From assembly GCA_030789695.1 (NCBI GenBank), contig CM061130.1:8857860-8921859 (forward strand): 64,000 bases of DNA, given 5' to 3'. Positions within the stretch are counted from its first letter, which is position 1. Every line of letters starts with the position of its first letter. Source of the stretch: Scilla litardierei (lineage: Eukaryota; Streptophyta; Magnoliopsida; Asparagales; Asparagaceae). Positions 24,268 to 54,849 of this stretch are shown here, one piece after another. The notes below the pieces were generated by a model. It saw only the letters and a list, made by a program, of their open reading frames with translations. It made no database searches and was not told where the DNA came from. The translations under genes were made by a program, and so were the position numbers.

Positions 24268-25873
24268 TGACCATGCCCCCGTCGGGCGCGTCTAATCCGC
24301 GCCGGATGTTGTGCAATGATGCGAACGGGGGTGTGTGAATTTAAATATTTGTAACCGCAAGCGCACGGTGTCGTAGTGTGGCTTGGGGGTCGAACTCAAG
24401 GAGGCGAGGATGTGCTTGTGTCAAAGAGGATCAAAATCCGCCCATGGGCGAGCTAGCCCAGATCGAATGATGGGTTGTCACGGTAAAGGAATGCAAGGTA
24501 TAGACACTATGAAGGGGAAAAACCCGGGACTTTGGTTTCCACCCCCAACGAGCGACTCTCGTCGACATGGCCTACGGGTAGGATAGCGATCGGAATTAGG
24601 GTCTAAAGGTGAGACGTTGCCTCTGGAAGTGGTACCGACATCCCATGGGACCGATATTCCGATCGGTGATCAGGATGATACGCCGGACTTCCCGGGTTCG
24701 ATCAGTGGGCACTCCCGTGTCCATTAAAACTGATCGACTCTGGGAGCACTAAGCTCGCAATGATAACTCCCAACGTCTCATCCTACCGCTCCCGCGCGCT
24801 AGGATTCGACGTCTACGCTAAGGGCGCGAGCTATGGCTAGGGAGTCAACCGCCAAGTTTATTCCCCCTTGGCCCAACGGTCAAAGGCGGTCTTTTTCCCG
24901 CCGATGACAATAAAACACCCCGCGTAACCGTTAGATTCCTAATCCCTATCGATTTCCTAACCCTATGGACGCATCAGGAAGAGCCCACGAAGGGGTTTCC
25001 GCCAAAATCTCAGATTTGGGAACTACTCACACATATTTAGTAAAAAGCGATCTAAACGAAAATGAACCGTTAAAATCAAGATCAGACAATAGAAATGCGA
25101 TGGTAGTAAAGCAATTAAGATAATACTAAAGTTTTACAAAGATCCGAAAACTTACAAAAACTGGAAAATTACAGCCGTCACAAAATGAAGAAAACAGCAA
25201 AAAATAACCAACTCCCGAATCTGGGAAACCTAGGGTTCTATTTATAGAAAACGACATCACCCGATCGGTTGACAAGTCAACCGATCAGGTGAAGCGCTTC
25301 ACAAAATTACAGCGCAAAGTGGGGTTTCACCCGGTCAGGATGAACCGGTCGGTTGGATCTTGGAAGCGGTCGGTTGGATCTTGGTGCCGACCGGGTGAGG
25401 AGACCGGTTGGATCTTCGTGTCTTGGCTGTTGAAATTCGGCTACAGGTGAACCGATCGGGTGAAGGTCACCCGATCGGTTGGCAATCAGCTTCGAATTTC
25501 CAGAGACTTTGAGCTTTTGACCCGGTCACTGAACCGACTGGGTGACTTCTCGTGAGCTCCAAGCTGCGCCCGGGTGGTGCACGTGTGCAACACCCGATCG
25601 GTTGGAGATGACCAACCGACCGGGTGAGGGGCTGAAAGATGCAATCTTCGTCGTTTGACCCTCTGGATCACGCGTGACTCCTCCCGTTGCTCCGGGGACA
25701 CATGATATCATCGTTTTATGCCCCAAATGCCAGTAAACTCCTGCAAAACACGGAAAACACGGAAAAGTGAAAGAAAACAAGAAAACACGAGAAAACGAAT
25801 ATAAGACGGCGGTAAAACACGGAAAAACACGGAAGAAAACGTGCGTAAATATATGAAATATAAACGCACGTCA
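24268..25873 (-). repeat. 3' LTR of A2
   Basis: It is 1606 bp and very similar to 33541-35157. A minus-strand CTATAAATAG lies at about 25239-25248, with the CCGATCGG-word array on its upstream side (25255-25630). The length difference from the other LTR is one motif duplication near 25285. Confidence 0.92.
25450..25480. repeat. 14-bp-arm hairpin in A2 3' LTR
   Basis: AACCGATCGGGTGA, then the spacer AGG, then its exact reverse complement. It is identical to the hairpins in the other two LTRs of this family. Confidence 0.9.
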
Positions 25874-27188
25874 AAATCCCCCAAGCTGAACTCTTCCTCG
25901 ACCTCGAGGAAGACGAGTGAGAGTAGGAGCTCGGAGGGAAAAAATAGAGAGAAAGAGAGAAAAAGAAAACTCTATATCCCAGATCGCCCGTCAGGGCCAA
26001 CAAAATCAAAAACGACACACCAAGCAAGCAAACGCCAAATCACATCACTAAACCAAGGAATACGAGTCCAGACAAGTGCAGTGGGCCCACGCGGTGAAGC
26101 GCAAGTGAGTGTGGTCGTGTGCTAGCAGACGGTGTCACTATCTACGATGTGCGATAAAGCTCAATATACACAAATCCAGGAAATGACCCAAATATCGATT
26201 CGAATTGAATAAAGCGGTGAATATATAGTTCAAGCATGCATGAGAATAGAGAGAGAATCGAAACATATCATACGTCAGGGACTCCACAACTAGGGTTAAG
26301 GAAATCACCCCACTATAGCCTAGATAATAGCTAAAAAGTTCCTAAGCCAAGTGTTTTCGAAACCGATGGGGGTTGAGATGATGTGGAGAAGAACACTCGG
26401 TGCAAATTCTCGCCTTCCCTTTATTCTCGGCAAGTAGTAAAATATTCACACGGGAATTTTTTTTGGGTTTTGGGTATTTGTATTTTTTTTGGCTTTTTGG
26501 CTATATAAAAATTTTCTTTTCTTTTCTTTTTGGGTTTTTCTTTTCTTTTCTCTTTTTTTTTGGATTTTTGGGGTTTTTGGGCTATACACATGCGTACTCT
26601 CCCAAGTGGGAGAACGGTACACGATGAGGGGATTTGCACCAAGTAAAACAAAAAAGAAGTCGGAATCTAAACACTTGGGCAAAGGAAACTATTCTTGCTA
26701 AATAGAGCATGGGCTAAATGGGTTATCCTAGTCCTTAATTATGGAATCCCGACACATGCGAAATGAAGCATACGATATGTATTTAATCATGCATGCAGAA
26801 ACATGCAAGAGAGGCAAATACCGCATTAATCATATCGACTCGTGATAATCTAGGGGTCATTCCTGGACAGGTATATAAAGTAAAATCATAAAGCGGAAGC
26901 ACACCACACGGCTAGGCACGACACACGACTCACAAAAAGCTAAGTGGACCCACGATGCGTGAAATGCAGGGGGACTCGATATCCTAGAGTTAGTGAGTGT
27001 GATTACCGATGCTATGCTAGGTGTGTGTGATTTTGTGGCAATTCATCATAGGGTTCATCTCTAGGAGAAAGAGATAAAAAAGAAGAAAAGAAAAATTAAA
27101 AACACGATGAAAACAACACAAAAACGAAAAAGAAAGACTCAAATGACGCACAAAGTGCGACTCCCCCAAGCTGAAGCTTGCATTGCCC
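25874..27188 (-). other. 3' untranslated internal region of A2
   Basis: It begins with the purine tract (minus strand CAGCTTGGGGGATTT, 25874-25888). It holds T-rich runs (26455-26590) and a second CCCCCAAGCTGAAGCTTG motif near 27163. No gene is recognised. Confidence 0.6.
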
Positions 27189-28583
27189 TCAATGCAATAA
27201 GAGTGAGTACGGGAGGGCAATGAAAATAGGGGGGAATACGCACAGACACAAAAAGACAAGAAGAACTAGAAAAACACAGATACGAAAATGAAAATAAAGA
27301 AAAATCAAAATCAAACCACACGACAAAAAAATAGAAAAAGAAAGAAAGAAAATGAACAAACTACACGACACGATCAAACCACATGACATGACACGACAAA
27401 AAGTAAAACAAGCACACACAAACAAAGAGAAAACAAAACACGACAACACAGTAAAACAGACTTCCCCCAAGCTAGACATGACAATGCTAGCAATGAAATA
27501 TGAATGTGAAAGTGCAGAAATATGCAAGGTGGATGTCAAAAAAAAGTGAAATAAAAAATCAGGAGAAGGAGAATCCTCGCCCTCCTCGGAAGAGGGTGTG
27601 AATGGGTGGGTGGGGGAGACTGGGGGTGTGCGGAGAAGCGGGGAAAGAGGTGGAGGAATAGGTGCAGTGGTGGTGTGAATGATGGGTGGAATGTCGGTGG
27701 TGGCGGGTGGTTGTGGAAGCACGGCGATCAAGGCGGTGGTAAAAGGAATAGAAATGGGGGGAGAAGACGTGATGGTGACAGTATTGGGTGGAGGTGGGAG
27801 GGATTTGGAGCGCACCTGCAATTTCTTGCGGCGCACATATGATGTGACGGAGGAGGAGGTAGAAGGTGGTGTGGGTGCGACGGAAGTGGTCGTGAGAGGA
27901 GAAGTGGATACCGAGATGGGAATAGATGTGGGTGGGGGAGATGATCACCTAGGTGGGGGCGGGGGAGGTGGGGATGGGTGGGATGGTGGAGGAGAAGAAT
28001 GTGATGGGGGAGGTGATGGAGGTGGGGATGTGTGGGAGGGTGGAGGCGAAGATCGTCGAGGTGGTGAAGGTGGAGGTGGTCCGTGGATGTGAGTGAGAAG
28101 GCGAAGAATGGCGGCCACGTTCCTCTCAAGTGCGAGGAACCGTGGGTGAGTGAGAAAGGAGGACGGTGATGGGTCCGAGGGGGCAGAGGACATGGCGAGA
28201 TCATGGAGGGCTGCGACCTCCCTCTCTAGAGCAAGACGGGCAGAGACCTGGTGGCGACCAAAGGAAGTGGACTGACATGAGGCGGAAGTGGTGCCGGCAG
28301 GTGATGTGGAAGTAGTGCCGGTGGCAGTGGTCATGCCGGCACTGGACACGAGGCCAGAGATGGCCGCAAAGAGATGCTCAGAAGTGATGGGGCCAGGTGC
28401 AGAAACAGGGTGACTTGGGCCAGCCCCAATATCTCCCCGGGACGCAGGAATATCCTGCTCGCCTAAGTGGGCGGCAGGGGAAGGTGGTCTGCGTGCGTCC
28501 GGGGGAAAGAAAGGAAGGTGCAACCCCGCAAAGAACTCGGGATCGGGCGGAAAAGTCCAATCCGCCACGATAGCAACAGTCAT
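27189..28583 (-). pseudogene. Proline-rich downstream part of A2 env-like region
   Basis: A 212-codon frame (28583-27945) starts MTVAIVADWTFPPDPEFF and ends in a long Pro/Ser stretch. Its ATG overlaps the stop of the upstream env-like frame as ATGA. A third frame (27836-27189) starts MRRKKLQVRSKSLPPPPN, is Pro/Thr-rich, then very hydrophobic in its second half. Together they look like the C-terminal part of an env-like protein broken by frameshifts, with a possible membrane segment at the end. The hydrophobic run may also be chance translation of an A-rich strand. Confidence 0.45.
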
Positions 28584-29665
28584 GCGAGCGGGGTTGGGGA
28601 GAATGGTGTAGGGGCGAGGGGGTGGCCGTAATTGAATTCGAAGCGACCGTCGGGGCGGGGCTTAATCATATGAATGTGCCGCAGGACGTCAAGATCTAGA
28701 CGTGAGGGTCCTACGGCGATGGGAAGACCACGGGGGATATGGATATTAAACGGGGGGTAAGAAGAAATAATAGTGATAATGCCCCCACAGCAGATCTTGC
28801 CCTTCCCGGCCCTGCTAATCTCGAGAAGCTTGTAAACAAGCCAATCGCCAGCATGAACAGGGACAGTAGGGGCCCTAAAGCTAACTCCATCATCGTCACG
28901 AACAAAGGGGAAAGTCATGGCCCAGAGAATAAAAAGATCGGGGATAGTCACGGTGCCTGACTCATCCCGCGGGAAAAATGCAGAGGATATGATCATATGG
29001 GCCAAACGAAATATGGGATGGATGATGGAGGAGGCCTTGGCCTTACCACGTGGATAGCGACGGAGTATGGTGAGGCGGAACCAAAAGTTATCGACGTCAA
29101 ATTCCGGGGGGTATCCGTAGTGTCGGATAGCGTCATTCCCTAGAATAGGGAAACCAAATATACGATTGATGGTATCCAGGTTGGTGCGTATGGTTTGGTT
29201 ACGCACCCGGAAAGTGACAGTTGACCCCGACTCACAAACGAGGGAGGAAAGGAATTCTAGGGTGAGTGACGGGTAGGATACCGCAGAGGCATTCAGGAAG
29301 GCCAACCAACCAAGGTTAGCGAAAAGAGTCTCGACCTCGGTGAAGACACCGAGGTCGACGAGTGATTGGGTGTGGGCAAACTTGGTTGATAAATGCCCCC
29401 GAGCATCTAGTCTGTGGTAGAAGTCTTTCTGCTCTTGGTTCCTAAATAGGTACCCATCCGGGCCCAACATGGGGTCCACAGGGGGAATGATAGGTGCGGG
29501 AGGGGTAAGTGTCAGTTCGCGTGTGTGGGGAGGAGGACGTGTTTGTTTACGTCTCTTACGAGACAGTTCCTCCTCCCGCATGATACCCTTCCCCTTATCT
29601 CTCTCTCGGGCCATGTGTGCGAGTGAGCGATGCAAATGAGTGCAAAGTACTATCAAAGTGCACAC
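28580..29665 (-). CDS. Athila ORF-1/env-like protein of A2
   Basis: This is an open minus-strand frame of 361 codons. A later Met at about 29614 (MARERDKGKGIMREEELSRK) is the likelier start because it opens with the usual basic stretch. The body holds FYHRLDARGHLSTKFAHTQS, FLNASAVSYPSLTLEFLSSL, TINRIFGFPILGNDAIRHYG and MIISSAFFPRDESGTVTIPD, which match the pattern of the Athila ORF-1 family. The function is unknown; it sits in the env position but I see no signal peptide. It lies 400 bp downstream of a TATA box at 30050-30057. The stop overlaps the next ATG, so a frameshift there is possible. Confidence 0.7.
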   Translation of the reverse strand: MCTLIVLCTHLHRSLAHMARERDKGKGIMREEELSRKRRKQTRPPPHTRELTLTPPAPIIPPVDPMLGPDGYLFRNQEQKDFYHRLDARGHLSTKFAHTQSLVDLGVFTEVETLFANLGWLAFLNASAVSYPSLTLEFLSSLVCESGSTVTFRVRNQTIRTNLDTINRIFGFPILGNDAIRHYGYPPEFDVDNFWFRLTILRRYPRGKAKASSIIHPIFRLAHMIISSAFFPRDESGTVTIPDLFILWAMTFPFVRDDDGVSFRAPTVPVHAGDWLVYKLLEISRAGKGKICCGGIITIISSYPPFNIHIPRGLPIAVGPSRLDLDVLRHIHMIKPRPDGRFEFNYGHPLAPTPFSPTPLA

Positions 29666-30049
29666 ACACGAACAACCAAGCAGATTAAATATCTAGGGTA
29701 AAAATTGAAATTTGAGAAGTGGAGCAAAGTTACCCCATAGAAATTCGAGCTCCTCGCTTGTAAATGACCCAATGCCGGGCAATGGGAGAAGTGTGGAGCC
29801 GCGGCACTCTTCTTCAGCAAAAAATTCGAAAGTGGGGGTTGGTATTGGGAATTAGGGCTAGAGAAATGCGAAATAGGAGAGGGAGAGAGAGAAATAGACG
29901 GAGAGATGCAAGGGGGAGGTGGAGAGAGAGGTTAATGGAGGATTTGAGGTTGTGGGAGAGGGGTTTTTGGCAGTCGAGTGCTTGGAGGAGACGAAATGAT
30001 GGCGAAACGGCGAGATCGGGCGAGGGTTTGTGAACGGGTGGGTCGGGGG
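29666..30049 (-). other. Leader between internal TATA box and env-like ORF of A2
   Basis: This purine-rich stretch (plus strand GAGAGGGAGAGAG type) would be the untranslated leader if transcription starts at the TATA box at 30050. No gene is seen. Confidence 0.4.
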
Positions 30050-30430
30050 TATTTATAGGTTTTAAGTCGAACCGGTCGGGTGAGTTGTCACCCGATCGGT
30101 TGACTTTAGGTCGAAATTTGATGCTGAAGAAATGCTACAGGCGACCCGATCGGTTGAGAACTCAACCGATCGGTTCGCCGCTCCACACATTTTCCCGAGA
30201 ACTCAGAGTTTCTCACTCGGTCCCTCAACCGGTCTCGCTTATTGTCACCCGCTCGGTTGACAATTCCCTGAAATTTTCCCGAGAGTTTCCCCAGGTCACC
30301 CGGTCCGCTCACCCGGTCTCATCTTTCTCCACCCGGTCGGTTCATTTGGTGACAGACACGGCTGTTAGCTGATACATCCCAACCGATCGGGTGAGTTATC
30401 ACCCGATCGGTTGGGGCCTTGTTTTCTGCA
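30050..30430 (-). promoter_or_regulatory. Internal promoter-like module of A2
   Basis: A minus-strand TATAAATA lies at 30050-30057. Upstream are repeated pairs such as CAACCGATCGGGTGA / TCACCCGATCGGTTG (30378-30413) and GAACCGATCGGTTGAG (30157-30176). The LTR TATA region has the same order of parts, including the CCTGTAGC word. It probably drives the env-like ORF; this is inferred. Confidence 0.55.
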
Positions 30431-30726
30431 AAAAACCAAAAATCACCTAAATTCCACGTCGGAAGTTCTTGCGGCTGGATTTATTTATAAAAGTAGATAA
30501 AATAAAGTTGAAAATACTCCTAAAAATTGAAACAAAAGTTTAGAGCATGGGTTGCCTCCCATGAAGCTCTTTTGTTTAACGTCGTTTAGCTCGATGCCCG
30601 TTGATGATGTTCATGGTGGGCGATACGGGTGATGCCCAAAGTCCGGCATCTCTTCAACTCCAGAGCTTGTGGCTATTGGTGTAGTCGACGGCTGTAAAAA
30701 GATTTGCTCGACTACCCTCCCTTTGT
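30431..30726 (-). other. Pol-deletion junction region of A2
   Basis: It holds the conserved post-pol segment (GAGCTTCATGGGAGGCAACC, minus strand, about 30548-30567) directly downstream of the protease tail. That tail continues out of frame to about 30600 (GRVVEQIF). Confidence 0.55.
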
Positions 30727-31908
30727 CTACAGGATCCGGGGCTTCTCCCTCAAATTGGCGTCTACCGCCATCTTTTTCAGGATCCGGACCTCATCACCAG
30801 TGAGGTCCATGGGTTCTTTCCCCTTTCTCCTCATGGGAGGAGACTTAGGGAATCCGGGAGGGATCACATGTCGCGCGACCGCATCATTAGCAACTTCATT
30901 CTTTGGGGAGCCAACTTGCTCTCCAAGGTTCCCCAAGCTATCCGGGGGATTACTCGAGAGCACTTCCCAGGCACTTGTTTCAACAGCTCTATCTTCTTCA
31001 TTCTCCAGCATACTGATACTCGGATCGTCCGGGGGATTTGGATGCTTCATCGACAAGCCTAAGTCAAATTCGACTCTTTCTTGGCCCACATTGAGGGAAA
31101 GCTTCCCATTCTTCACGTCTATCAAAACTCCGACGGTTGCCATAAAGGGTCGTCCAAGAATAATTGGGGTATGCTTGTCTTCCGGCATGTCCATCACCAC
31201 AAAATCAACCGGTACATGTACTCCTCTCACATCGACTGGGAGGTCGTCCACTACTCCCACCGGGTACTGGACCGAACGGTCAGCAAGTTGCAATGTCATG
31301 CCGGTGGGCTCTAAGTCTCCCATCCCTATTCTCTTGTACAACGATAGGGGCATTAAGCTGACACTCGCGCCTAGATCGACAAGTGCCCTCTGGATTTCCA
31401 CTTCCCCAATAGAGCAAGGGATGGAGAAACTTCTGGGGTTCTTGAGCTTGGGCGGATTTGCGTGCTGAATAAGTGCGCTGCACTCCGCTGTTAACACGAC
31501 CTTCTCTTTTCTAGATCCCCGTGTCACCAAGTCTTTCAGAAATTTAGCATATGAGGGAATCGTCTCGATGGCCTCGAGGAAGGGGATTTGTAAGCTCATA
31601 TCTTTCACCATGGCAAAGAATTTGCCATACTTCTCATCGATTTTGGCTTTGGCAAGCCGTTGTGGGAAAGGCACAATGGGCTTGAACACTATTGGGTTCC
31701 CTTCCTCATCTTTCTTCTTCTCCTCTCTATGAACTCCCTCCGGAGTAGTTAGCTTTGGTGACGAAGCACCATCGTCATTTAGTTTCTCAATTGGTCGTTC
31801 CACGACCAACGGTGCTTCCGGTCCTTTGGGGGGCTCTCTCGTAGGTATTTGCGTTCCGCTCCTCAAGACGATGGCAGACACGTTCTCATGCTCATGTGTG
31901 AGCGCCAA
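30727..31908 (-). pseudogene. Gag end and aspartic protease of A2
   Basis: This 393-codon frame is the polyprotein-processing protease. It has SAIVLRSGTQIPTRE near the start, DEKYGKFFAMVKDMSLQIPF, active-site region ALVDLGASVSLMPLSLYKR, VDFVVMDMPEDKHTP and IILGRPFMATVGVLID. The active site reads DLGAS rather than the D-T/S-G of most relatives, the same as in A1, so it is a family feature. The frame ends EKPRIL at 30727 because one G is missing from a G-run (five in A1, four here). Upstream a TAA (near 31925) separates it from gag. Confidence 0.85.
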
Positions 31909-31999
31909 GGTCCGATTTACCCCCTAGGGTTCACCTCAGGCTGTGGCGGTAAAAGATTCTGCGGTCTCTGAAGGTTTGCCACTTGCAACCCCAGCTGGG

Positions 32000-33330
32000 T
32001 CACCTGATCAGTGAGGACTCTTTGTCCCATCTCCAACTTCAGATTTATTTTCTCTTGATTGGCGATGTATTGAGTCAAGAGGGACTCAACCGGAGAAATG
32101 GCCCTCTGCTGGCCGTATTGCTGCTGGGTGGGCTGCTGATTCCTAGGAGCATACTGTTGATACTGTGGCGGAGGTTGTTGCTGCTGAAATTGCTGCTGGG
32201 GCCTAGCCGGCTGATATATCTGCTGTTGTTACTGAGCCGGCTGTTGATAAGGCGCCCGGTAACTAAGGTTCGGATGATTCTGGTTGTTTGGAGAGTAGGC
32301 TGGGTTGGAGTTGGTTCGTGGTGGAAAAGGCGCATTCCCCGTAGGATTGTAAAATAATGCGCTCGTCTGATCCAACGGTGGTGAGATGTCACCACCGTCG
32401 AACTCTCCAAAATCTTCGGACTCCACCGCAGCAATCTGTTGTGTACCGGCGCCACCGGCACCTACCATCAATGCGGAGATCTGGGTTGACAGCAAGTCAA
32501 ACTTGCTTGACAATTTGTCGACGTCTTCGACTCTATGGATACCCCCAGATCTTGATGTGGCTCTCTCGTCACACCACCGTTCATTGTTGGATGCCATATT
32601 TTCCAAAATTTGCCTGGCATCTTCTTCGCTTCTTGACATGAAGGACCCTCCAGTCGCGGCGTCCATGGAAGATTTTAAATAGTCCCTCAACCCATTATAA
32701 AACAGATTTATGATCTGCCACTTGGGGAGCTCATGGTAGGGACATCTTCTCTGCATCTCCTTGTATCTTGTCCAAGCCTCATGCAAGGACTCATGGCTGG
32801 CCTGGGAGAAGGAGGAGATCTCACTCCTCAGCTTCATGGTCTTCCCCGGGGGAAAGAACTTCGTCAGGAAAGCATTTGAGAGCTTCTCCCAGGTGTTGAA
32901 TGTATTTGGGTCCTTCCCCCTAAGCCACAGCTTGGCCTTATCTCGCAAGGAGAAGGGGAACAGCTTCAGTCAGATCGCCTCAGTTGTGACACCATTTATC
33001 CAGAAGGTGTCACATTTCTCTAAGAAGAAGTCTAGATGCTCAATCGGGCTCTCCATGGGTGCACCCGAAAATTGGTCCTGCTGGGATCCACGTCACCAAA
33101 GATGGCTTAAGCTCGAAGCTTTGGGCCGTAATAGCTGGAGGACAGATGGCGGAGGTGGACTCGATAGATGGCATCGAGTACTCCAACAGGGACTTGTGAG
33201 GCGGGGTGTTCTCCCCCATGGCTTCAGGATCCTCTCTTCTTCGCTTCTCGGCGGCCAAACGCCTTAGGGTGGCGTTTATCTCTGGATTAACGGGGATCAA
33301 GTCGTCGAGACTTCTTGAACTCCTGCGCAT
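32000..33330 (-). pseudogene. gag of A2, frameshifted
   Basis: The start is MRRSSRSLDDLIPVNPEIN at 33330. One extra base near 33080 shifts the frame. A TGA replaces an Arg codon at 32970-32972 (EAI-stop-LKLF). From 32948 the gag domain is open (RDKAKLWLRGKDPNTFNTWE, LTKFFPPGKTMKLRSEISSF, YNGLRDYLKSSMD), followed by ALFYNPTGNAPFPP and a Gln-rich tail. No zinc knuckle is seen. Confidence 0.85.
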
Positions 33331-33516
33331 GAAAAACAACAAACACTCGTGAAGCGAAAAGTGGGAAAGAAACAGATAAGATAAGAAATAAAAATAAAAA
33401 TAAAAATAAAAATAAGAAAATAAAAAGGAAAAAGAAGAATGCGAAAATTATCGCGAGGTAGGGATGAGAGCTAGACACGAGGGTTCATGAAATCCAAAAA
33501 TAACAAGCACGTTGCC

Positions 33517-33534
33517 TCCCCGGCAACGGCGCCA
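33517..33534 (-). promoter_or_regulatory. Primer binding site of A2 (tRNA-Asp)
   Basis: TCCCCGGCAACGGCGCCA is a perfect 18-bp match to the 3' end of plant tRNA-Asp including CCA, 6 bp from the LTR. Confidence 0.9.
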
Positions 33535-33540
33535 TAAACT

Positions 33541-35157
33541 TGACCATGCCCCCGCCGGGCGCGTCTAATCCGCACCGGATGTTGTGCAATGATGCGAACG
33601 GGGGCGTGTGAATTTAAATATTTGTAACCGCAAGCGCACGGTGTCGTAGTGTGGCTTGGGGGTCGAACTCAGGGAGGCGAGGATGTGCTTGTGTCAAAGA
33701 GGATCAAAATCCGCCCATGGGAGAGCTAGCCCAGATCGAATGATGGGTTGTCACGGTAAAGGAATGCAAGATATAGACAATATGAAGGGAAAAAACCCGG
33801 GACTTTGGTTTCCACCCCAACGAGCGACTCTCGTCGACACGGCCTACGGGTAGGATAGCGATCGGAATTAGGGTCTAAAGGTGAGACGTTGCCTCTGGAA
33901 GTGGTACCGGCATCCCATGGGCCCGATATTCCGGTCGGTGCCCAGGATGATACGCCGGACTTTCCGGGTTCGATCAGTGGGCACTCCCGTGTCCATTAAC
34001 ACTGATCGACTCCGGGAGCACTAAGCTCGCAACGATAACTCCCAACGTCTCATCCTGTCGCTCCCGTGCGCTAGGATTCGACGTCTACGCTAAGGGCACG
34101 AGCTATGGCTAGGGAGTCAACCACCAAGTTTATTCCCCCTTGGCCCAACGGTCAAAGGCGATCTTTTTCCCGTCGATGACAATAAAACATCTCGCGTAAC
34201 CGTTAGATTCCTAATCCCTATCGATTTCCTAACCCTATGGACGCATCGGGAAGAGCCCACGAAGGGGTTTCTGCCAAAATCCCAGATTTGGGAACTACTC
34301 ACACATATTTAGTAAAAAGCGATCTAAACGAAAATGAACCGTAAAAATCATGATCAGACAATAGAAATGCGATGGTAGTAAAGTAATTAAGATAATACTA
34401 AAGTTTTACAAAGATCCGAAAACTTACAAAAACTGAAAAATTACAGCTGTCACAAAATGAAGAAAACAACAAAAAATAACCAACTCCCGAATCTGGGAAA
34501 CCTAGGGTTCTATTTATAGAAAACGACATCACCCGATCGGTTGACAAGTCAACCGATCGGGTAACCGATCGGGTGAAGCGCTTCACAAAATTACAGCGCA
34601 AAGCGGGGTTTCACCCGGTCAGGATGAACCGGTCGATTGGATCTTGGAAGCGGTCGGTTGGATCTTGGTGCCGACCGGGTGAGGAGACCGGTTGGATTTT
34701 CGTGTCTTGGCTGTTGAAATTCGGCTACAGGTGAACCGATCGGGTGAAGGTCACCCGATCGGTTGGCAATCAGCTTCGAATTTCCAGAGACTTTGAGCTT
34801 TTGACCCGGTCACTGAACCGACCGGGTGACTTCTCATGAGCTCCAAGCTGCGCCCGGGTGGTGCACGCGTGCAACACCCGATCGGTTGGAGATGACCAAC
34901 CGACCGGGTGAGGGGCTGAAAGATGCAATCTTCGTCGTTTGACCCCTTGGATCACGCGTGACTCCTCCCGTTGCTTCGGGGACACATGATATCATCGTTT
35001 TATGCCTCAACTGCCAGTAAACTCCTGCAAAACACGGAAAACACGAAAAAGTGAAAGAAAACAAGAAAACACGAGAAAACGAATATAAGACGGCGGTAAA
35101 ACACAGAAAAACACGGAAGAAAATGTGCGTAAATATATGAAATATAAACGCACGTCA
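33541..35157 (-). repeat. 5' LTR of A2
   Basis: It is 1617 bp, TGACC...CGTCA in plus reading. A minus-strand CTATAAATAG lies at 34510-34519. It carries one extra GGTAACCGATCG unit near 34560 compared with the 3' LTR. The hairpin is at 34734-34764. Confidence 0.92.
34734..34764. repeat. 14-bp-arm hairpin in A2 5' LTR
   Basis: It has the same arms and AGG spacer as at 14115 and 25450. Confidence 0.9.
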
Positions 35158-35162
35158 CTGCT

Positions 35163-35231
35163 GAACCTATTTTCCAAGAATAATTCATATTTGTGTTATC
35201 CAAGACTTATTCATCTTTTCTATACAAATAT
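35163..35231 (+). pseudogene. Env-like ORF of SIRE-like element, piece 2
   Basis: It continues piece 1 in frame (NLFSKNNSYLCYPRLIHLFY, then TNI) up to 35231. The next piece at 56079 starts RTKVIDTQ, and by comparison with the domain pattern roughly ten codons are missing between them. The flank therefore lost sequence during the later insertions. Confidence 0.65.
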
Positions 35232-35869
35232 TGTAAGAGACCCAGCCAAGTGACGACGTTCTTCGTCCAGGTTTCGTCGCCAACGCCACCCAATGGGAGG
35301 CGGAGAAGTCACATCAGGGGGTTGAAGCCTCTGGAGTGATGTTTGACGGCCGAGTGTTGCCACGAGCTGGGAATCAAAGGAGATGCCGTTGAGATGGAGG
35401 GAGCAGATGGATTTGTGAGAAGAAGAATACAAACCGTTGATGAGCAGTGGGCCTAGCCGTTAGAGTCATCATTGCAACGAAACAGCTGGCTTCTTTTCCC
35501 CTTGCCTCCAGCTACCCAAGGGTCGATTGTAATTAAGAGTAGGCTCACAAATCCTAACAGAATTCTGTTAGAGTTGTTAGAATCTTTGGAGAGCAAGGAT
35601 AAGTAGTGAATTGGGAGAGAATTGTAGGCATCGAATATTTTTGAGAAATCAATCCAATCTCTTTATCTCCTTTGAGATTTCAGCTTTATTTTCATTTCAG
35701 TCTCATTTTCATTTGTTCTCATGTTTTCCTATTTTTTTGTTCTTCATTGATCTCTCTTGATCTTTCCTTTCTGCTAATTCGTGTCGCTGTGAGCCATGGG
35801 CCGGCGATTGAAGCTTGCAGAAGTGGAGGAGCGGGCGGCGGAGCCACCAGAGGAGGCGGTGTCTCCACA
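35232..35869 (+). repeat. 5' LTR of the transducing element
   Basis: It is 638 bp and contains the ATG (35796) and first 24 or so codons of the long ORF. There is no strong TATA box. T-rich stretches at 35680-35770 may be the leader. Confidence 0.9.
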
Positions 35870-38789
35870 ATTGGTATCAGAGCTAGTCGGTTCTGCGAGT
35901 GCTCACAAGGTGTTTGGTGATTTGCTTCAACGAGCCAAGAATCTACATCAAGAAGGGAACACGTTCTATCAAAGCAACAAATACTATGAGGCAGCCTGCA
36001 AGTATATTGCTGCAAAGGCTTACTTCGACCGAATTTCCATAGCAAAAGGAGGGGTTAGACACTTACACTGTATGATCAATTTGATGGGTTGCTATTTGAT
36101 TACTGGGGGCTATCAGTTGTGCATCAATTTGGGTTCAGAAGTCTTGGAGTATGACTCCAGGAATCTTGGAGTTTTTCTTTATCAAGGGCAAGCTTATAGA
36201 GAGTTGGGTTTTCATGAAGCGGCATACTCTGTAATGATGAAGGCTTATGGGGACTTTTCAGCTGAAGACGGAGAAGAAGAAGAGGAACATGAGAAAGAAG
36301 ATAAGCTAGTTTACAGACAAGAAGAAATGGCTGTCCAAGAACAAGAATCCCAAGATTACCCTGTTGCAGTTCAAAGTGACAGAATTCAAAGAAATAGTGG
36401 TCAAGGAAGAGAAGTGGGCAATCGAGCAATGGTGGCTTCTTTGTCATTAGAAACTTTAAGTTCCCCAATGGTGGATACATGCATAGGTGGCAGCCGCACC
36501 TCCAAGAGCGAGAGCCGATGTGAAGACGTCCTCGCCAACATCAACATTCAAGAATCTACAATCAACTTCCAGAATCAGAAATTGTGTGAAGCTGATGGAA
36601 GAAAGCAAGGTGGCCATTTGCAAGAGACGACAACCTCTTTCCCTACTGCAAAGCAACAAAACGCGATCCAAGATGACTCGGCTACTATTTCATCACATTA
36701 CGTTTATGCTCCAGTTCCTTCCGCTCAAATTTCCATGGCTTTAAATTCTGCTCATCCGTCAGCTGCTGCAGTGAGAGATGGGGCAACATCAGGTATCAAG
36801 TCTAAAATCTGGAACTTTGTTAGAATGGGTTCTGTTATTGCCTCCTCCCATCCATTAAATCCATATAATTGTCCTGTAACCCGAATTAATTCCCTTGAAT
36901 TCTTGAAAACCCAATTACATGAAATATTGGCATGTGGGTTTCGTAAGAAAAGATTCGATGGGGGTGTGAGTTTTGATCCTGGAGGAGTTGGAGATGGCAG
37001 AGAGAATGCCGATGTGATTTGCCTAGTTCTAAAAACTATGGTTCATAATTCAGTTCATCTTCATTTCCTTCATCCTCGACAAGGAGGAAATAGCCCAGAC
37101 CTTCCTTCATCTTCAGTTCCTATTGCTATGAAAGAAGTCTTCATTTTCGACCCAGGAGGAGCCGTAGTAAAGAAAAATGAAGTCAAGCTCTTTGTTGATG
37201 ATTTGGCTGCAATAAGTTTTTTATTCAAGATATGGGACAATGACCAGATTCTTGGGGGGTTGGCTGTAGAAATTGATGAGCTTGGTAAGCGTGTTCTGGA
37301 ACTGAGACAGAAGTCGGATGCCTTGGCGAATACTGAAACCAACCATGAGGATCGGAATCAATTGTTAGCTGAGAAGAATGATGAGCTCAAAAACTGTCAG
37401 TTGGAGTGGCAACATAAATCGGTTTCTCTAGAGGCTAATGAAGCCAGTGCTGAGGAGCTACGACAGACTTTAGTTAAGAAGACGCATGAGCTTGATAGTT
37501 GCTTGCATAAATTGCATGAAATACTGGTTTCTGAAATCACTGTCGAGGAGTTGAAGATGTCAGTGGCTGAGAAGGTCAACCAGCAGGAAAAGTGCCAGCT
37601 GGAATTGAAACCGAAGTCTTACACCTTACAGACTGCTAATGTCACTACAGCAGAGCTCAAAGAGACTCAGAACTTGGTTAATGTGCTTCAGGAATCTCTC
37701 ACAGAGAAGAGCAAGGTCCTTAATGGAATAGAAGAAATAATGCTACAGGCGAATTCCAAAGAGGATTTGCTCGCTATGGAAGTCTTCGAATTTGATAAGT
37801 TTACAGTTGGAACTGAAGCCGTAGCAAAGAAGTTGGCAGAGCGTAGTGGAAGTGGGGTGACAACAAGCATCGGAGAGGGCGATTCTGTTGCCCTGGCTGA
37901 GCGTGTTACGGATGTTTTCGAGAAGGATAGCATTATGCTCTGGGATTTGGAACAGAGTGGAGTAAAGATGCTTGCCCTCGTCAAGAATCTCATCAAGGTG
38001 GCGGGGTCGCGTACAGAATTCATTATCTTGCACAGGAAAAGGAAATTGCCATGCGTCGATTGTTGTTTGGAGATTTCTAACCACAACACATTCTATGATA
38101 TTCCCACTGGTGCTATTATAGCCTCGATGTCAGATGTTGGCCAAGTCTTCAATCAGGATTACTACAGAGGGGGTCCACCAAGATTGTGGCAGACTGGAAA
38201 CATGAATGGGCATGGGAGATTAGGGTGGCTCACATCAGTGCTGGATATGCTGAACGGTTCAGAGACAAACACTTCGAGCTGTCTGAGAAATAATCATATA
38301 TTTTCAGGATCGGTTGACAACAAAGATGGGCTGATCTCTTGCCAATTGAATCTTACAGATGCATCTTCATCTATGCAAATATATAAGAGTTATGGTGGAG
38401 TGGATGGAGCCATTGGGTGTATTCCTGGCCAATTAAGTAGTAGCAAGTTGGAACACATGACTTGCATCTTGATTCAGCAATTGTTGACCAAGATCATCAG
38501 AAATTGCCAAAGTTCATGCCAGAGAATGACTGCTCGAGAAAGCAAGGCGCATAATATATATCATGGGTACGGTGTCTTTGAACGAGGCCGATACAACTGC
38601 CCAGTTCATGTGTGCATATCAAGCACACAACGCATGCATCCACCTTCATGCATCAGTTCAAAAGCCCTGTTGATATCTGCAAGCGTTAGTTCGTGGGTAA
38701 TGTTCTTAGGGGAGCATATCTCGATCAATGGGAATTTTGTCTTTGATCCGGGGGGGACTTGGAATCAGTGGATCATATCTCGACCTTGA
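35796..38789 (+). CDS. Chimeric 997-aa ORF: TPR (OEP61-like) plus coiled coil
   Basis: This open frame starts inside the 5' LTR ([20 protein letters not shown]), reads through the primer site (QLVSELVGS) and ends 30 bp before the 3' LTR. Residues about 46-155 are a TPR region ([46 protein letters not shown]) resembling the TPR domain of plant OEP61, a chaperone receptor; whether it binds anything is unknown. Residues 160-185 are acidic. About 486-650 is a heptad-rich coiled coil ([35 protein letters not shown]) resembling a segment of long plant coiled-coil proteins. FDPGG occurs at about 392, 450 and 982. The remainder is unrecognised. It has no introns, as expected for RNA-level capture. 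Expression and function are unproven. Confidence 0.6.
35872..35883 (+). promoter_or_regulatory. Primer binding site (initiator tRNA-Met)
   Basis: TGGTATCAGAGC lies two bases after the LTR. It is the standard plant initiator-Met primer site. It is also read as codons of the long ORF. Confidence 0.9.
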
Positions 38790-38803
38790 GGACAAGGTCG
38801 ATT

Positions 38804-38818
38804 TTGAGAGGGTGGGTT
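38804..38818 (+). promoter_or_regulatory. Polypurine tract of the transducing element
   Basis: TTGAGAGGGTGGGTT directly precedes TGTAAGAG of the 3' LTR. Confidence 0.8.
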
Positions 38819-39455
38819 TGTAAGAGACCCAGCCAAGTGACGACGTTCTTCGTCCAGGTTTCGTCGCCAACGCCACCCAATGGGAGGCGGAGAAGTCACA
38901 TCAGGGGGTTGAAGCCTCTGGAGTGATGTTTGACGGCCGAGTGTTGCCACGAGCTGGGAATCAAAGGAGATGCCGTTGAGATGGAGGGAGCAGATGGATT
39001 TGTGAGAAGAAGAATACAAACCGTTGATGAGCAGTGGGCCTAGCCGTTAGAGTCATCATTGCAACGAAACAGCTGGCTTCTTTTCCCCTTGCCTCCAGCT
39101 ACCCAAGGGTCGATTGTAATTAAGAGTAGGCTCACAAATCCTAACAGAATTCTGTTAGAGTTGTTAGAATCTTTGGAGAGCAAGGATAAGTAGTGAATTG
39201 GGAGAGAATTGTAGGCATCGAATATTTTTGAGAAATCAATCCAATCTCTTTATCTCCTTTGAGATTTCAGCTTTATTTTCATTTCAGTCTCATTTTCATT
39301 TGTTCTCATGTTTTCCTATTTTTTTGTTCTTCATTGATCTCTCTTGATCTTTCCTTTCTGCTAATTCGTGTCGCTGTGAGCCATGGGCCGGCGATTGAAG
39401 CTTGCAGAAGTGGAGGAGCGGGCGGCGGAGCCACCAGAGGAGGCGGTGTCTCACA
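38819..39455 (+). repeat. 3' LTR of the transducing element
   Basis: It is 637 bp and identical to the 5' LTR by eye except GTCTCACA in place of GTCTCCACA at the end. Confidence 0.9.
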
Positions 39456-39605
39456 AATCCTTATTTTTTTTCCTTGTTAATAAATTTTAAAACTGTTGTT
39501 TTACTTTTTTTTAATTCTTCTTCTCTTTGAATTAGAACCTGTGGGTACCCTCGTTTGGAACAAAGCTTTAATAAATAAATAAATCCAATCTGTAGTAAAA
39601 GATCC

Positions 39606-39608
<3 letters not shown>

Positions 39609-39650
<42 letters not shown>
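39609..39650. repeat. (AT)n microsatellite
   Basis: About 41 bp of alternating AT. The same site in the 3' LTR (46288-46304) has only about 17 bp. Confidence 0.9.
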
Positions 39651-39653
<3 letters not shown>

Positions 39654-41769
39654 TGTTTAAAATTTTCACTATGCGTTTCTTTTTACACTTAACAGTAGTA
39701 ATACCATAAGAGCCCAACTTTGAATTATTTTCATGTTAAGAATCTTCATCTACCAGTTAGTTCTTTAAAGGAAATATAAAAAAGAAAAAAAACTGTTAAT
39801 CGATCCTATCTAATAACAACCGTACCCCATGATTTCCCTCTCCCCAAATCAAGCAACCATCACATGGCCTCTCACCCACGTTCTTATCTCTCTCTCCTCT
39901 AACTGTACAACAACCCACGTCTTATCTTTCCCTAGAAATGCTACAGAAGTCTACATGTAGGGAACTCAGTTCATTTCAAAATGCAACAGGAGCAATTGCC
40001 TAGGCTTCACGTATGAATCTTATCTCTCTCCCTCATCTTCCTCTCCTACCCAGCGTGCGGAACCCGAGTGAACCCATGCAAACGTAAAGAAACCCACAGT
40101 CGCATGAGCTCTCCTCCTCCTTCATAAAACCCAAGAGGCCGAACTTCACCTCCCCATCAACTGCAGCGCCGTCCCGCCTGATCAAGAGCCCCTACCGACA
40201 GCCATTCCTCCGACCATCCACCCCTTCGCGAGGCCGCCGTTCGCTGCTCGACCCCAGCGACTGCCGTAGCAGCGAGTCACAGGCATCGCCCGCTCGCCTA
40301 GAACCCTCGCACGACATCGTCGGCACTTTCCGATCGCCACGACCGCCAATGTTGCCGTCGGCAACGCTCCCTCGATCACCGCAGCCTCGCCGACGGCCCG
40401 TGCAGCCGCCCCGACCGCCAACACAGCCGTTCGGGCTGTGTTTCCTTCGCACCGCCGCAGCACCCAGCGGCAAACGCCACTGCCGTGACTTCTGGCGCCG
40501 CCCGACGCAGGGGATCGCCGCCCCGCCAGCCCCGAGCGCCGCTGACCTGAACCCCGTGCAGCGCAACCCCTCGACGAGCGGCATCGAACCCACCTGCAAA
40601 CAAGCGAGGGAACGTAACTAAAGCGGTGAGTTTCTTACGTGGGTGAAGATGTGAGTAGCTTAAATAGGTTGGCTTTTTATGCATACTGTACTCCAACTTG
40701 CAACAGAGAGCTATTGTTGGCATTGGGATGAATACTAGGACATGTGATAGTACGTACTCAATCATTTAGATAAAAATCAATACGTTCTTTTAATACCTAT
40801 ATATGTAAGGTTATATATGCTCTAAGTTATGTTACTGCATTAATATATGTTATGCTAACCTAATGTAACATTAAATGTACTACATTGCATGAGCAGTATG
40901 TTAAACAGTAACTCCTTTACACATTATGTCATGTGCTTTTACACAACTAGTAATATATATACGGGTTAGGGGTTAGATGATGCATGCTACCCGATAGGTG
41001 TGAACAACTTCACATATAAGGACTTCATGTTTTTATTGTTAACTGATGACCTTTAGCTTAACATCGTGAATATTATGACGCATATAACTCCACACTACCC
41101 GCAGTCAAGGAATCAAGGCGATGGTGACGCGAGCCGTTGTTTTTGGATCCGACGTCGAAAGTACACGTGACCGTCGAACCAGGTTGGGTCCCCTAACTCG
41201 TAGCACAACCCACACCGTAGCGAAACCCAAAACCTAACTAAAACTGGACAACAATAATTAAATTTACTTTTCTGCACCAGTAAAATGCTACTCACTATAG
41301 AAAATCGACGAACGGACTTTTTGACTGTGCACATAGGATAGAATCGTCGAATAGGGCTGAACATCAAAATTGTGACTTTGACAATTAGGGTAGTCCCGAC
41401 AACCTAGAAACAAAACCTAAATAGGTTTATTGAAAAACGCGACCTGACACCGTCGCCATGACCTGTTTCAGACGGACTACCGCGAACGCGACGCCTGGAC
41501 GAGACGCCCCGGACGGACGACACACTCGCCACCGCAGGCAAGTGTACCCACTTGCATTTTTGACCGTGCTTTGGTCTTAGATTGCTAGAACTGTTAGACT
41601 GTGAATGTATAGAACCGGACGTGAAATGATAGCGTCCGGGACGCCCCTGACGACTTAGACTTGACGACGAAGTCTAAGCTCGACAAACAACACCTTTTGA
41701 CACCGTAGGGCTATCTTGTGTGTGTGTGCGTGTGGACACCCTATAATAACAATTCCTTACACTTGTCTT

Positions 41770-42020
41770 GTCATGTCCCTGTTACACAAAAAGCCTGCGG
41801 GTATTTCGGATGCTTTCCCTAGCGGAAGTGATCCCTATGACTGTTATACAAAAAGCCTGCGGGCGTTTCGGATGCTCTCCATGCGAGAGTGATCCCCGTG
41901 ATACACAGCCTGCAGGCAATAAGGCACTCTCCAAGCTAGAGAGAGTGATCCCTTGTACGGATACACAGCCTGCGGGCAATAGGGCACTCGCCAAGCTAGA
42001 GCGAGTGATCCCTTGTACTG
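41770..42020 (+). repeat. Degenerate tandem repeats in L2 LTR with self-complementary cores
   Basis: Four units share CAGCCTGCGGGCAAT or AAAGCCTGCGGGCGTTT, a GCACTCTCCAAGCTAGAGAG-type stem and GTGATCCC. They differ by paired changes (CTCTCC...GAGAG versus CTCGCC...GCGAG). The block recurs at 48430-48680. Confidence 0.75.
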
Positions 42021-42836
42021 GTGTCTTGTCTTGTCTTGTCTTTCTTGGGGTTTGGGGTTGGGTTGAGCGTGTGCACGGCAAGAGGGTCTGATCCCCCTCA
42101 ACCCGTAAGGCGTGAACCCTTTCGTGTCTCACTTGTCTTGTCTTGTCCTGTCCCGTCACGTCCCGACTTGTCATGACACCTGTAGGTTAGTCCCGTAGTT
42201 GGTAGCACACGCTACGACTACTACCTGTCCCGTTTTACTTTCCTGTTGCGTTACTTCCTGTTGTGTTACTCTGTTATAACCACACCATGCTAATCACCCA
42301 GTAAACTGTGTGTAATAGAACCTCAGCATGCTAATCAACCAGTAAATCGTTGTTTAAAAGTTGATACACTTGCAGTTTGGTCTAACCCTTTTTCTAGACC
42401 TTACCTGACGTACAGTTCCCTCTTTTGGTGATGTACGTCAGGTGCTCAGCCATAGTTCATGGACGAGGTAGACTCACTGGAGCACGAGTAGCCGAAGACG
42501 TCGACCCAGAGTACGCGCCCGACGAGGACCAGACCTAGAGGTCTTTTTAGTCGTCACTTTCAGAGGTTACTGCTTTTAGTTTACTTTTAAATATTGCGTG
42601 GCCATGCTTAGGCTTCCTTTTAGACTTTGTACTCGTTGAATATTACATCTCTAATTTAATGAATGCAACTTCCTTTATATACCTTCTGTTGTTTCGAACT
42701 TTATTAATGCAAGAACCTGAAACTTTCAAATTGGTATCCCCTACAGACGCTTATTGGGTCCGAGCTTCTCAGCTCTGGCCTAAGCGGGCATTAGTCACGC
42801 TTCGCCTCCGTCCTTTTTGGGAAGCGGGGCGTGACA

Positions 42837-45950: not shown

Positions 45951-48429
45951 TGTAACGGTCACTTTCCGACCAAACGTATTTTAGCGCGTACCTGTGTTTC
46001 GTGTGCGTTTTATGTGTTTTATTTTTATTACAGTTGTCCGTAGTCAGACGCGTGTGCGAATCCCGTATTCTCGACCCTCTCGAAGGCGCGATTCCCCCGG
46101 TATATTCGTTGTAATTTTCGGACGCCCGTGGACTTATCAGCCTTATTTTTTCCTTGTTAATAAATTTTAAAACTGTTGTTTTACTTTTTTTAATTCTTCT
46201 TCTCTTTGAATTAGAACCTGTGGGTACCCCGTTTGGAACAAAGCTTTAATAAATAAATAAATCCAATCTGTAGTAAAAGATCCTAATTATATATATATAT
46301 ATATTAGTGTTTAAAATTTTCACTGTGCGTTTCTTTTTACACTTAACAGTAGTAATACCATAAGAGCCCAACTTTGAATTATTTTCATGTTAAGAATCTT
46401 CATCTACCAGTTAGTTCTTTAAAGGAAATATAAAAAAGAAAAAAAACTGTTAATCGATCCTATCTAATAACAACCGTACCCCATGATTTCCCTCTCCCCA
46501 AATCAAGCAACCATCACATGGCCTCTCACCCACGTTCTTATCTCTCTCTCCTCTAACTGTACAACAACCCACGTCTTATCTTTCCCTAGAAATGCTACAG
46601 AAGTCTACATGTAGGGAACTCAGTTCATTTCAAAATGCAACAGGAGCAATTGCCTAGGCTTCACGTATGAATCTTATCTCTCTCCCTCATCTTCCTCTCC
46701 TACCCAGCGTGCGGAACCCGAGTGAACCCATGCAAACGTAAAGAAACCCACAGCCGCAGGAGCTCTCCTCCTCCTTCATAAAACCCAAGAGGCCGAACTT
46801 CACCTCCCCATCAACTGCAGCGCCGTCCCGCCTGATCAAGAGCCCCTACCGACGGCCATTCCTCCGACCATCCACCCCCTCGCGAGGCCGCCGTTCGCTG
46901 CCTGACCCCAGCGACTGCCGCAGCAGCGAGTCGCAGGCATCGCCCGCTCACCTAGAACCCTCGCACGACGTCGTCGGCACTTTCCGATCGCCACGACCGC
47001 CACTGTTGCCGCCGGTAATGCTCCCTCGATCACCGCAGCCCCGCCGACGGCCCGTGCAGCCGCCCCGACCGCCAACACAGCCGTTCGGGCTATGTTTCCT
47101 TCGCACCGCCGTAGCACCCAGCAGAAACTGCCGCTGCCGTGACTTCTGGCGCCGCCCGACGCCGGGGATCGCCGCCCCGCCAGCCCCGAGCGCCGCTGAC
47201 CTGAACCCCGTGCAGCGCAACCCCTCGACGAGCGACATCGAACCCACCTGCAAACAAGCGAGGGAACGTAACTAAAGCGGTGAGTTTCTTACGTGGGTGA
47301 AGATGTGAGTAGCTTAAATAGGTTGGCTTTTTATGCATACTGTACTCCAACTTGCAACAGAGAGCTATTTGTTGGCATTGGGATGAATACTAGGACATGT
47401 GATAGTACGTACTCAATCATTTAGATAAAAATCAATACGTTCTTTTAATACCTATATATGTAAGGTTATATATGCTCTAAGTTATGTTACTGCATTAATA
47501 TATGTTATGCTAACCTAATGTAACATTAAATGTACTGCATTGCATGAGCAGTATGTTATACAGTAACTCCTTTACACATTATGTCATGTGCTTTTACACA
47601 ACTAGTAATATATATACGGGTTAGGGGTTAGATGATGTATGCTACCCGATAGGTGTGAACAACTTCACATATAAGGACTTCATGTTTTTATTGTTAACTG
47701 ATGACCTTTAGCTTAACATCGTGAATATTATGATGCAGATAACTTCACACTACCCGCAGTCAAGGAATCAAGGCGATGGTGACGCGAGCCGTTGTTTTCG
47801 GATCCGACGTCGAAAGTACACGTGACCGTCGAACCAGGTTGGGTCCCCTAACTCGTAGCACAACCCACACCGTAGCGAAACTGAAAACCTAACTAAAACT
47901 GGACAACAATAATTAAATTTACTTTTCCGCACCAGTAAAATGCTGCTCACTATAGAAAATCGACGAACGGACTTTTTGACCGTGCACATAGGATAGAATC
48001 GTCGAATAGGGCTGAACATCAAAATTGTGACTTTGACAATTAGGGTAGTCCCGACAACATAGAAACAAAACCTAAATAGGTTTATTGAAAAACGCGACCT
48101 GACACCGTCGCCATGACCTGTTTCAGACGGACTACCGCGGACGCGACGCCTGGACGAGACGCCCCGGACGGACGACACACTCGCCACCGCAGGCAAGTGT
48201 ACCCACTTGCATTTTTGACTGTGCTTTGGTCTTAGATTGCTAGAACTGTTAGACTATGAATGTATAGAACCGGACGTGAAATGATAGCGTCCGGGACGCC
48301 CCTGATGACTTAGACTTGACGACGAAGTCTAAGCTCGACAAACAACAACTTTTGACACCGTAGGGCTATCTTGTGTGTGCGTGCGTGTGGACACCCTAGA
48401 ATAACAATTCCTTACACTTGTCTTGTCAT

Positions 48430-48680
48430 GTCCCTGTTACACAAAAAGCCTGTGGGCGTTTCAGATGCTTTCCCTAGCGGAAGTGATCCCTGTGACTGTT
48501 ATACAAAAAGCCTGCGGGCGTTTTGGATGCTCTCCATGCGAGAGTGATCCCCGTGATACACAGCCTGCGGGCAATAGGGCACTCTCCAAGCTAGAGAGAG
48601 TGATCCCTTGTACGGATACACAGCCTGCGGGCAATAGGGCACTCGCCAAGCTAGAGCGAGTGATCCCTTGTACTGGTGTC
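48430..48680 (+). repeat. Tandem repeats in L2 3' LTR
   Basis: Second copy of the block at 41770-42020, with scattered base changes. Confidence 0.75.
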
Positions 48681-48759
48681 TTGTCTTGTCTTATCTTTCT
48701 TGGGGTTTGGGGTTGGGTTGAGCGTGCGCACGGTAAGAGGCACTACTACAAAAAAACGC

Positions 48760-48985
48760 TTGCATAGCGCTTTTTTTTACACTTGGATAGCGCTTTTAAG
48801 CGCTATCCAAGCTACCGCTATGGTAGCTTAGATAGCGCTTTTATAAGCGCTATCGTAGTGGTTTACTAAGATAGCGCTTATAAAAGCGCTATCCAAGCTA
48901 CCGCTATGGTAGCTTGGATAGCGCTTTTTTAAGCGCTATCTAAGTGGTTTACTAAGATAGCGCTTTTGAAAGCGCTATTCAAGAT
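48760..48985. repeat. CACTA subterminal repeats, left
   Basis: At least six palindromic AGCGCTT...AAGCGCTAT units alternate with GCTACCGCTATGGTAGC and GTGGTTTACTAAGATAG. They are probable transposase-binding sites by analogy with En/Spm. Confidence 0.8.
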
Positions 48986-49028
48986 TACTCGATAAATTTT
49001 GATTTTTACCTGGCGTTTTCTAATGTCT

Positions 49029-49108
49029 GGACTGGCCGTGGCTAATACTCATTAGCCACGGACCGGCCGTGGCTAATATGCATTAGCCACGGACCGGCCG
49101 TGGCTAAT
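49029..49108. repeat. Palindromic GGACCGGCCGTGGCTAAT repeat
   Basis: Three units of (CATTAGCCAC)GGACCGGCCGTGGCTAAT in tandem, each able to pair with its neighbour. Confidence 0.85.
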
Positions 49109-49574
49109 GTTTAGTTTTGTTTTTAAAAAAAAGAAAATCAGGAAATTTCTGTGAAGCATGTTTTCTTAAAAGCTAGCTCTCTCTTGGCTGACCCGTTCAG
49201 CTACAGCTGAACAAAAACCATGTTTTTCTTACAATACTGTCATGAATTTTAAAAATAAGAAAGCACTATCAAATTAGTCCCATAAGGTTGCAAGAAAACT
49301 ATCGCATGTTTCTAAATATACTTAAATTATTGATAGAGAAACTTGATACATGAATTGGGATCACCTCCCACTGTAAATGAACCACCCATCATGTCCTTTC
49401 CTAGCACGAGACTCATTTGATCGTTTTACAGAGTTACAACACAAGAGACTTCCAATATTGTTATACAACACCCTGCCTATCAAAGTATTACAGCACTCAA
49501 ACACGAGCATTCTCATCGGCATCAAGCTCGCCTACAGGAATACAAAGAAGAATACTCAGCTGAAGTCTCTTAGA

Positions 49575-49694
49575 GAGAGCGAGGATGGCTTCGTTCGGTG
49601 AAGCGTTAATGATAGAGTTGAGTACAACGGGGGCAGCGCAGAAGCGTGTCGCTCCTTGGTAGGCAATGGCCGAAAAGATGGCCTTGGCTGTTGC
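49575..49694 (-). pseudogene. Captured exon of acyl-activating enzyme (AMP-binding ligase)
   Basis: After a good acceptor (TTTTGTAG, minus strand) the frame reads ATAKAIFSAIAYQGATRFCA then APVVLNSIINA. This is the region before the TAGAAPPP motif in plant peroxisomal or cytosolic acyl-activating enzymes (carboxyl-CoA ligases), where the usual form is a THFCAAPVVLN-like block. Similarity ends near 49575. Only about 40 of roughly 550 residues are present. Confidence 0.65.
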
Positions 49695-50350
49695 CTACAA
49701 AAGAAAATTAAAGGTTAATTGATAGCAGATATTTTGTTAATGTGTGGGGGAAAATTGATTATGTGCACCTATGCTAAGAAAGTTAAATATATGATGGCAA
49801 TCCCTTGCCCCCAGCCTCATCAGTGTGTGCCATATCATCAAGCACATAACATACGTGCACAATCATATGAACAAGAATGCCAGAAACAAGCACTAAGACA
49901 CAAACAAGACTACCAGAAACTCACCCAAATACAAACATTGTCATTGAAGATCTATATGGAACACAATCCACAAGAGTTCAAGCACACGTGTAGGGTATCA
50001 AACACTGAAAAGCCATCATTGATTATAGGTTCTCTTACATATAATTGATTTCTTAAGTCATCACTTAATTCACTCAAATGAAAAATCATTTTCAGGACTA
50101 GTTGTTTCATTTGGTAGTTGATCCACTTTGGTCACAGGACTACTAAAACAATCTTTCCTTCTAAAAAAATAGACCACCAAAACAATCAATTGCTTGTCAA
50201 ATTTGATATGAGACAACCAGACATCACAAAATTCAGAGTACACACCAAAAGGAATCATGGCCAAATCGTATCAAAAGTTGATTGATGCTATCAATAGAAT
50301 CCAAACTGAAGTCATATATAGCAAGAATTTAGATCAAGAACAGAACTTAC

Positions 50351-54772: not shown

Positions 54773-54849
54773 CTGGATTAAATAAGATTGGGAGTTGCAG
54801 AGGGTGAAAAGAGATTGAGAGATCCATAGAGAGAGAGAGAGAGACGTAC

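Follow-up and report, generated by a model that had tools for sequence, protein, structure and literature searches.

A young LTR element of Scilla litardierei whose interior is a single long reading frame with similarity to unrelated host genes

The element and its surroundings

The window analysed here, a 64-kb stretch of the Scilla litardierei genome, contains at positions 35232–39455 a chimeric LTR element whose internal content is one long open reading frame (ORF). All features of this element lie on the forward strand. With the LTR bounds set by the terminal TG...CA dinucleotides (TG at 35232, CA at 35868–35869), the 5′ LTR occupies 35232–35869 (638 bp) and the 3′ LTR 38819–39455 (637 bp), the latter differing from the former solely in its final few bases. 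The length of 637 bp assumes that one C was lost near the end of the 3′ LTR; it could equally be that the copy is truncated at 39452. Positions 35231–35865 and 38818–39452 are identical at 635 of 635 bases, and because the LTRs are identical, the insertion of the element is young.

Two bases past the 5′ LTR, and already within the ORF, the sequence reads TGGTATCAGAGC (35872–35883), a primer binding site (PBS) that we take to be of the initiator Met tRNA type, and an 11-base purine-rich tract containing one T, GAGAGGGTGGG (38806–38816), adjoins the 3′ LTR. The first-pass annotation had described two identical-looking LTRs, a Met-type primer site and a purine tract, and each of these descriptions holds. 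Direct LTRs with TG...CA ends, a PBS and a short purine tract, features by which LTR retrotransposons are recognised and which they need in cis, are all in place at 35232–39455. No further copy was found within the 64-kb window, and in a search for relatives among viral contigs one stretch fit a pattern and none was confirmed.

The target-site duplication of an LTR retrotransposon is commonly 5 bp long. A clean duplication is absent at the edges of this element, where the flanks read AATAT and AATCC (3/5 matching); the motif ACAAAT is repeated at the flanks, though its positions do not line up with the LTR ends. A duplication may have been spoiled when a few bases were lost at the right edge or when copies recombined. 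On the left, an Athila-like LTR element occupies 24268–35157; across it, the flank at 35163–35231 continues in an open frame into position 24267. The Athila-like element has LTR copies at 24266–25873 and 33539–35157 that are ~96% alike and a 5-bp duplication, CTGCT, and it carries on the reverse strand an ATHILA ORF1 (28580–29665), an aspartyl protease (30727–31908) and a gag (32229–32948). On the right, the flank starts at 39459, which is the exact start of a 3.4-kb repeat. The two copies of this repeat (39459–42836 and 46141–56078) are ~97% identical, end in GTGACA and have 3.3 kb between them; they may be LTRs belonging to a large element with little coding sequence, although their left ends have no initial TG. 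The second copy is split by a CACTA-type DNA transposon at 48741–55323, with ends CACTACTACAAAA ... GTAGTAGTG and a 3-bp duplication, AGG. Elsewhere in the window, 2137–4983 and 8559–11363 have 2.1 kb and 0.7 kb in common at ~99% identity, and so form either a recent duplication or a pair of repeats.

A 997-codon frame and its recognisable parts

The chimeric ORF (35796–38789) opens with an ATG in the context GAGCCATGG and encodes 997 amino acids, with approximately its first 24 codons in the 5′ LTR, where seven further ATGs lie upstream of its start. It spans the PBS and stops 29 bases upstream of the 3′ LTR, so that the earlier description of a single frame running from the LTR through the primer site was accurate to within one base (30 had been given). 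Among the 13 ORFs of at least 80 amino acids listed in 34000–40500 it is the longest, the runner-up having 135 amino acids. There are no internal stops in this frame, compared with 53, 69, 42, 45 and 55 in the other five, and across 500 simulated first-order Markov sequences the mean length of the longest open stretch was 120 amino acids and the maximum 241. Because the other frames are full of stops and the Markov sequences never exceeded that length, the 997-codon frame is not due to chance.

Pfam searches with the whole ORF and with seven sub-segments of it recognised no gag, protease, RT, RNase H or integrase domain, in agreement with the initial proposal that gag-pol had been replaced by one ORF, and six alternative-frame ORFs of the element gave no Pfam match at E 0.01. 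A full set of these domains is what an autonomous element of the Ty3/gypsy or Ty1/copia type would carry. Translation of 38785–38823, in a frame other than that of the ORF, yields a 12-codon tail that contains LEDKVDFE and stops inside the 3′ LTR. This tail is a possible relic, with an apparent likeness to the C-terminus of plant Ty3/gypsy polyproteins, and is no more than a lead to the Ty3/gypsy superfamily for the element.

The N-terminal part of the ORF product includes a TPR segment (aa 43–150; 35922–36245), which phmmer matched at E 7.2e-9 (E 1.7e-6 when the whole ORF was the query) to PDB chain 2fbn_A, listed under the name 70 kDa peptidylprolyl isomerase. The ten matches at E ≤0.01 include several engineered TPR proteins, and Pfam on the segment was weak (TPR_2, E 2). 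A protein search with the TPR segment by itself scored 60 candidates, not one of which reached E 1; the method requires shared exact 5-residue words, and its outcome does not count against the likeness to OEP61 that had been suggested for this segment.

Further along, codons 661–704 (37776–37907) form a 44-codon plant phosphoglycerate kinase (PGK) fragment in its native frame. When this piece was searched against a protein database of 5.8 billion sequences, all 31 of 31 matches bore a PGK domain, the best at E 1.4e-8, and 28 of them carry a plant species name; 35 of the 44 residues are identical to the consensus of these 31. Pfam gave PGK at E 3.5e-6 (26.7 bits, just below the cut-off of 27), and NCBIfam, run on seven segments, gave PGK at E 2.1e-6, far below the cut-off of its model, together with weak SMC-type matches. 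In the reverse direction, tblastn of the 31 PGKs against the element produced one block, at 37776–37907, with the other matches listed at E ≥1.4.

Codons 865–896 (38388–38483) probably derive from a glutamate dehydrogenase (GDH), likewise in its native frame. All three PDB matches up to E 10 are glutamate dehydrogenases, and ~15 of the 32 residues are identical by a hand count of the alignment. The best E of 0.0034 comes from an 87-aa query chosen after a weaker match (E 0.073) with a 629-aa query; with the whole ORF as the query the match is absent at E 0.1, and Pfam did not report it. An overlapping Pfam match to SRP_SPB (E 0.07 to 0.13) was set aside; neither candidate is strong, and GDH was preferred because all three PDB matches agree and the frame fits.

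Judged by these similarities, the ORF joins two well-supported and unrelated host families, TPR and PGK, with GDH probably a third; wherever a piece is recognised, it runs without interruption in its native frame. The multi-gene reading stands on the TPR and PGK pieces by themselves. In the first-pass list of parts the TPR segment had been correctly recognised, but neither the PGK piece nor the probable GDH piece was noticed. That list had also allowed for the outcome that all segments would match one ordinary gene, and what we recognise instead are two, probably three, unrelated families.

The remaining stretches are less distinctive. An acidic stretch (36255–36302), seen in translation, follows the TPR segment, and a coiled-coil-like stretch (aa 485–660; 37248–37775), delimited by eye, has a weak SMC-type match at E 0.055. 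PDB searches returned no match at E 0.1 with 37218–37778, which covers the coiled-coil region, no match at E 10 with 36276–37256, and one match, at E 1.6, with 37914–38370. A single-sequence structure fold of aa 1–165 reached a pLDDT of 45, too poor for use. The pentapeptide FDPGG occurs at the three places first reported for it: aa 393–397 (36972–36986), aa 451–455 (37146–37160) and aa 983–987 (38742–38756). In none of 2000 shuffles of the protein did any 5-mer occur three times. The codons of the three copies differ and their flanks are unrelated; with flanks just 20–37% identical, we excluded the idea that they are relics of a duplicated segment.

Probable origin of the chimera and possible maintenance of its frame

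We consider it probable that 35232–39455 is a non-autonomous plant LTR retrotransposon in which gag-pol has been replaced by fragments of host mRNAs, probably in several steps. The LTR would drive the RNA of the element, an initiator Met tRNA would prime its reverse transcription, and an autonomous relative would supply Gag and RT in trans, including for packaging. Pieces of host mRNA may have been gained by template switching during reverse transcription, perhaps over several rounds, and the resulting ORF would be translatable from the AUG located in the LTR. Before the present insertion, the frame may have been held open because the protein was useful to the element or the host; alternatively, RNA copies with early stops may have been lost to nonsense-mediated decay, a reading linked to an ORF that leaves almost no untranslated interior. 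Survival of RNAs without early stops is the form of the selection idea that we would prefer; it makes no demand on the amino acids of the patchwork and would agree with the weak codon signal near the ORF end. The PGK piece (35/44) is better kept than the GDH piece (~15/32), which fits captures at different times, though differences between the donors could equally account for this.

Since the LTRs are identical and the insertion is young, the openness of the frame after insertion needs no selection. The PGK piece suggests a longer history, be it of the frame or of its donor. Six of the 37 positions that are ≥95% constant in 31 PGKs are changed, including a glycine of GGGDS; these 31 were the best matches of one search, and the PGK of the source plant itself may be missing among them. 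We simulated random mutation starting from the present ORF, with indels left out. At 10% substitutions per site, which gives a mean identity of 0.81 (the PGK piece has an identity of 0.80 to the PGK consensus over 44 codons), the frame acquired a mean of 11.4 stops and stayed open in 0 of 400 runs, as against 37 of 400 at 2% and 4 of 400 at 4%. Because neutral drift to the divergence of the PGK piece would bring ~11 stops, there are two options: selection kept the frame open at an earlier time, or the donor was already diverged. As a sign of earlier maintenance this divergence, in an argument carried by 44 codons, is suggestive, not proof; if it goes back to the donor, the argument for selection falls away. 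With regard to the first-pass alternative of "selection or great youth", the insertion is young by its LTRs, while the PGK divergence speaks for greater age of the frame or of the donor.

Base composition is a second source of information on the frame. G+C at codon position 1 falls below that at position 2 in codons 826–900 (0.36 vs 0.41) and 901–975 (0.43 vs 0.49), and elsewhere in the ORF in codons 301–375 alone. Long-standing selection on the protein is not evident in codons 826–975.

Less probable than our main reading, though far from implausible, is an account that does not dispute the capture itself and concerns solely how the frame stayed open: the chimera would have been built shortly before insertion from diverged but open donors, and its openness would reflect inheritance and luck, with no selection. 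The identical LTRs leave little time since insertion, the donor sequences were not found, which leaves room for donor divergence, and the codon-position signal is weak near the end of the ORF, all of which suit this account. However, changes at 6 of 37 near-constant PGK sites, among them a GGGDS glycine, are hardly to be expected of a working donor. A more speculative possibility, which we think unlikely, is a lineage of retrotransposons that took up host mRNA pieces of differing ages one after another, and in which openness itself, and not the protein, was selected because an open frame evades nonsense-mediated decay and silencing by small RNAs. FDPGG would then be a motif of the elements themselves that recurs near the joins.

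For maize Bs1, domestication or a new gene function has been proposed; that the present ORF is likewise such a gene, with a protein used by the host or the element, seems to us improbable. The length of the frame, the still recognisable TPR segment and the three FDPGG copies, with their differing codons and unrelated flanks, are what such a gene might display, but a protein search with the whole ORF yielded 0 of 7993 scored candidates at E 0.001 (lengths 0.55–1.75 of the query), and the PGK and GDH pieces would be too short for enzyme action.

It is more doubtful still that the ORF encodes a fast-evolving, Gag-like retroelement protein whose similarities to host genes arose by chance. In yeast Ty1, which encodes Gag-Pol, the frame likewise opens inside the LTR and takes in the PBS, and long stretches of the present protein have no recognised domain; yet chance would have to produce a PGK match at E 1.4e-8 among 5.8 billion sequences, a Pfam PGK match at E 3.5e-6 and a TPR match at E 7.2e-9. 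Although the lack of a clean target-site duplication might be taken to indicate an ordinary host gene sitting by chance between the LTRs of unrelated insertions, this is scarcely credible given that the LTRs are identical, that the ATG lies inside one of them and that the ORF runs from there across the PBS to near the purine tract.

Relation to known gene-capturing elements

In maize Bs1, fragments from three host genes are described as forming one chimeric gene, for which both transcription and translation are reported (PMC13317346). The element described here shares with it the fusion of unrelated host-gene fragments within an LTR element into a chimeric gene (PMC13317346); fragments from more than one host gene, the Bs1-like hallmark, are present as the TPR and PGK pieces, the GDH piece being weaker. 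Compared with Bs1 as that review describes it, the host genes are others, and the element is unusual for an ORF that starts inside the LTR and takes up nearly the whole interior. By this analogy we regard the element as a further case of the Bs1 kind, similar in its apparent working, with no claim of descent.

Surveys list hundreds of captures by LTR retrotransposons (PMC3726574). In maize, 425 gene-capturing elements from at least 189 captures are reported, and under the conditions of that survey its account includes no LTR element that combines fragments from several host genes (PMC2774510). In comparison with the gene-capturing LTR retrotransposons of rice, sorghum and maize, two of the pieces in the present element are well supported and a third is probable. 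The elements described in PMC7264820 resemble it in having coding sequence other than gag-pol in their interior, but by that description theirs accompanies gag-pol, whereas here none is recognised save possibly the 12-codon tail, a candidate polyprotein terminus. Among the papers listed in a search of the open-licence literature, judged by titles and the openings of abstracts, none dealt with an LTR element with a captured PGK or GDH. As far as the two accounts extend, LTR elements with more than one host gene in a single open frame appear to be uncommon, with Bs1 as the model case (PMC13317346, PMC2774510).

The element bears on the origin of new genes by retrotransposon exon shuffling. As a young and intact example, it offers a chance to measure whether such frames stay open by selection, and whether that selection acts on the protein or on openness.
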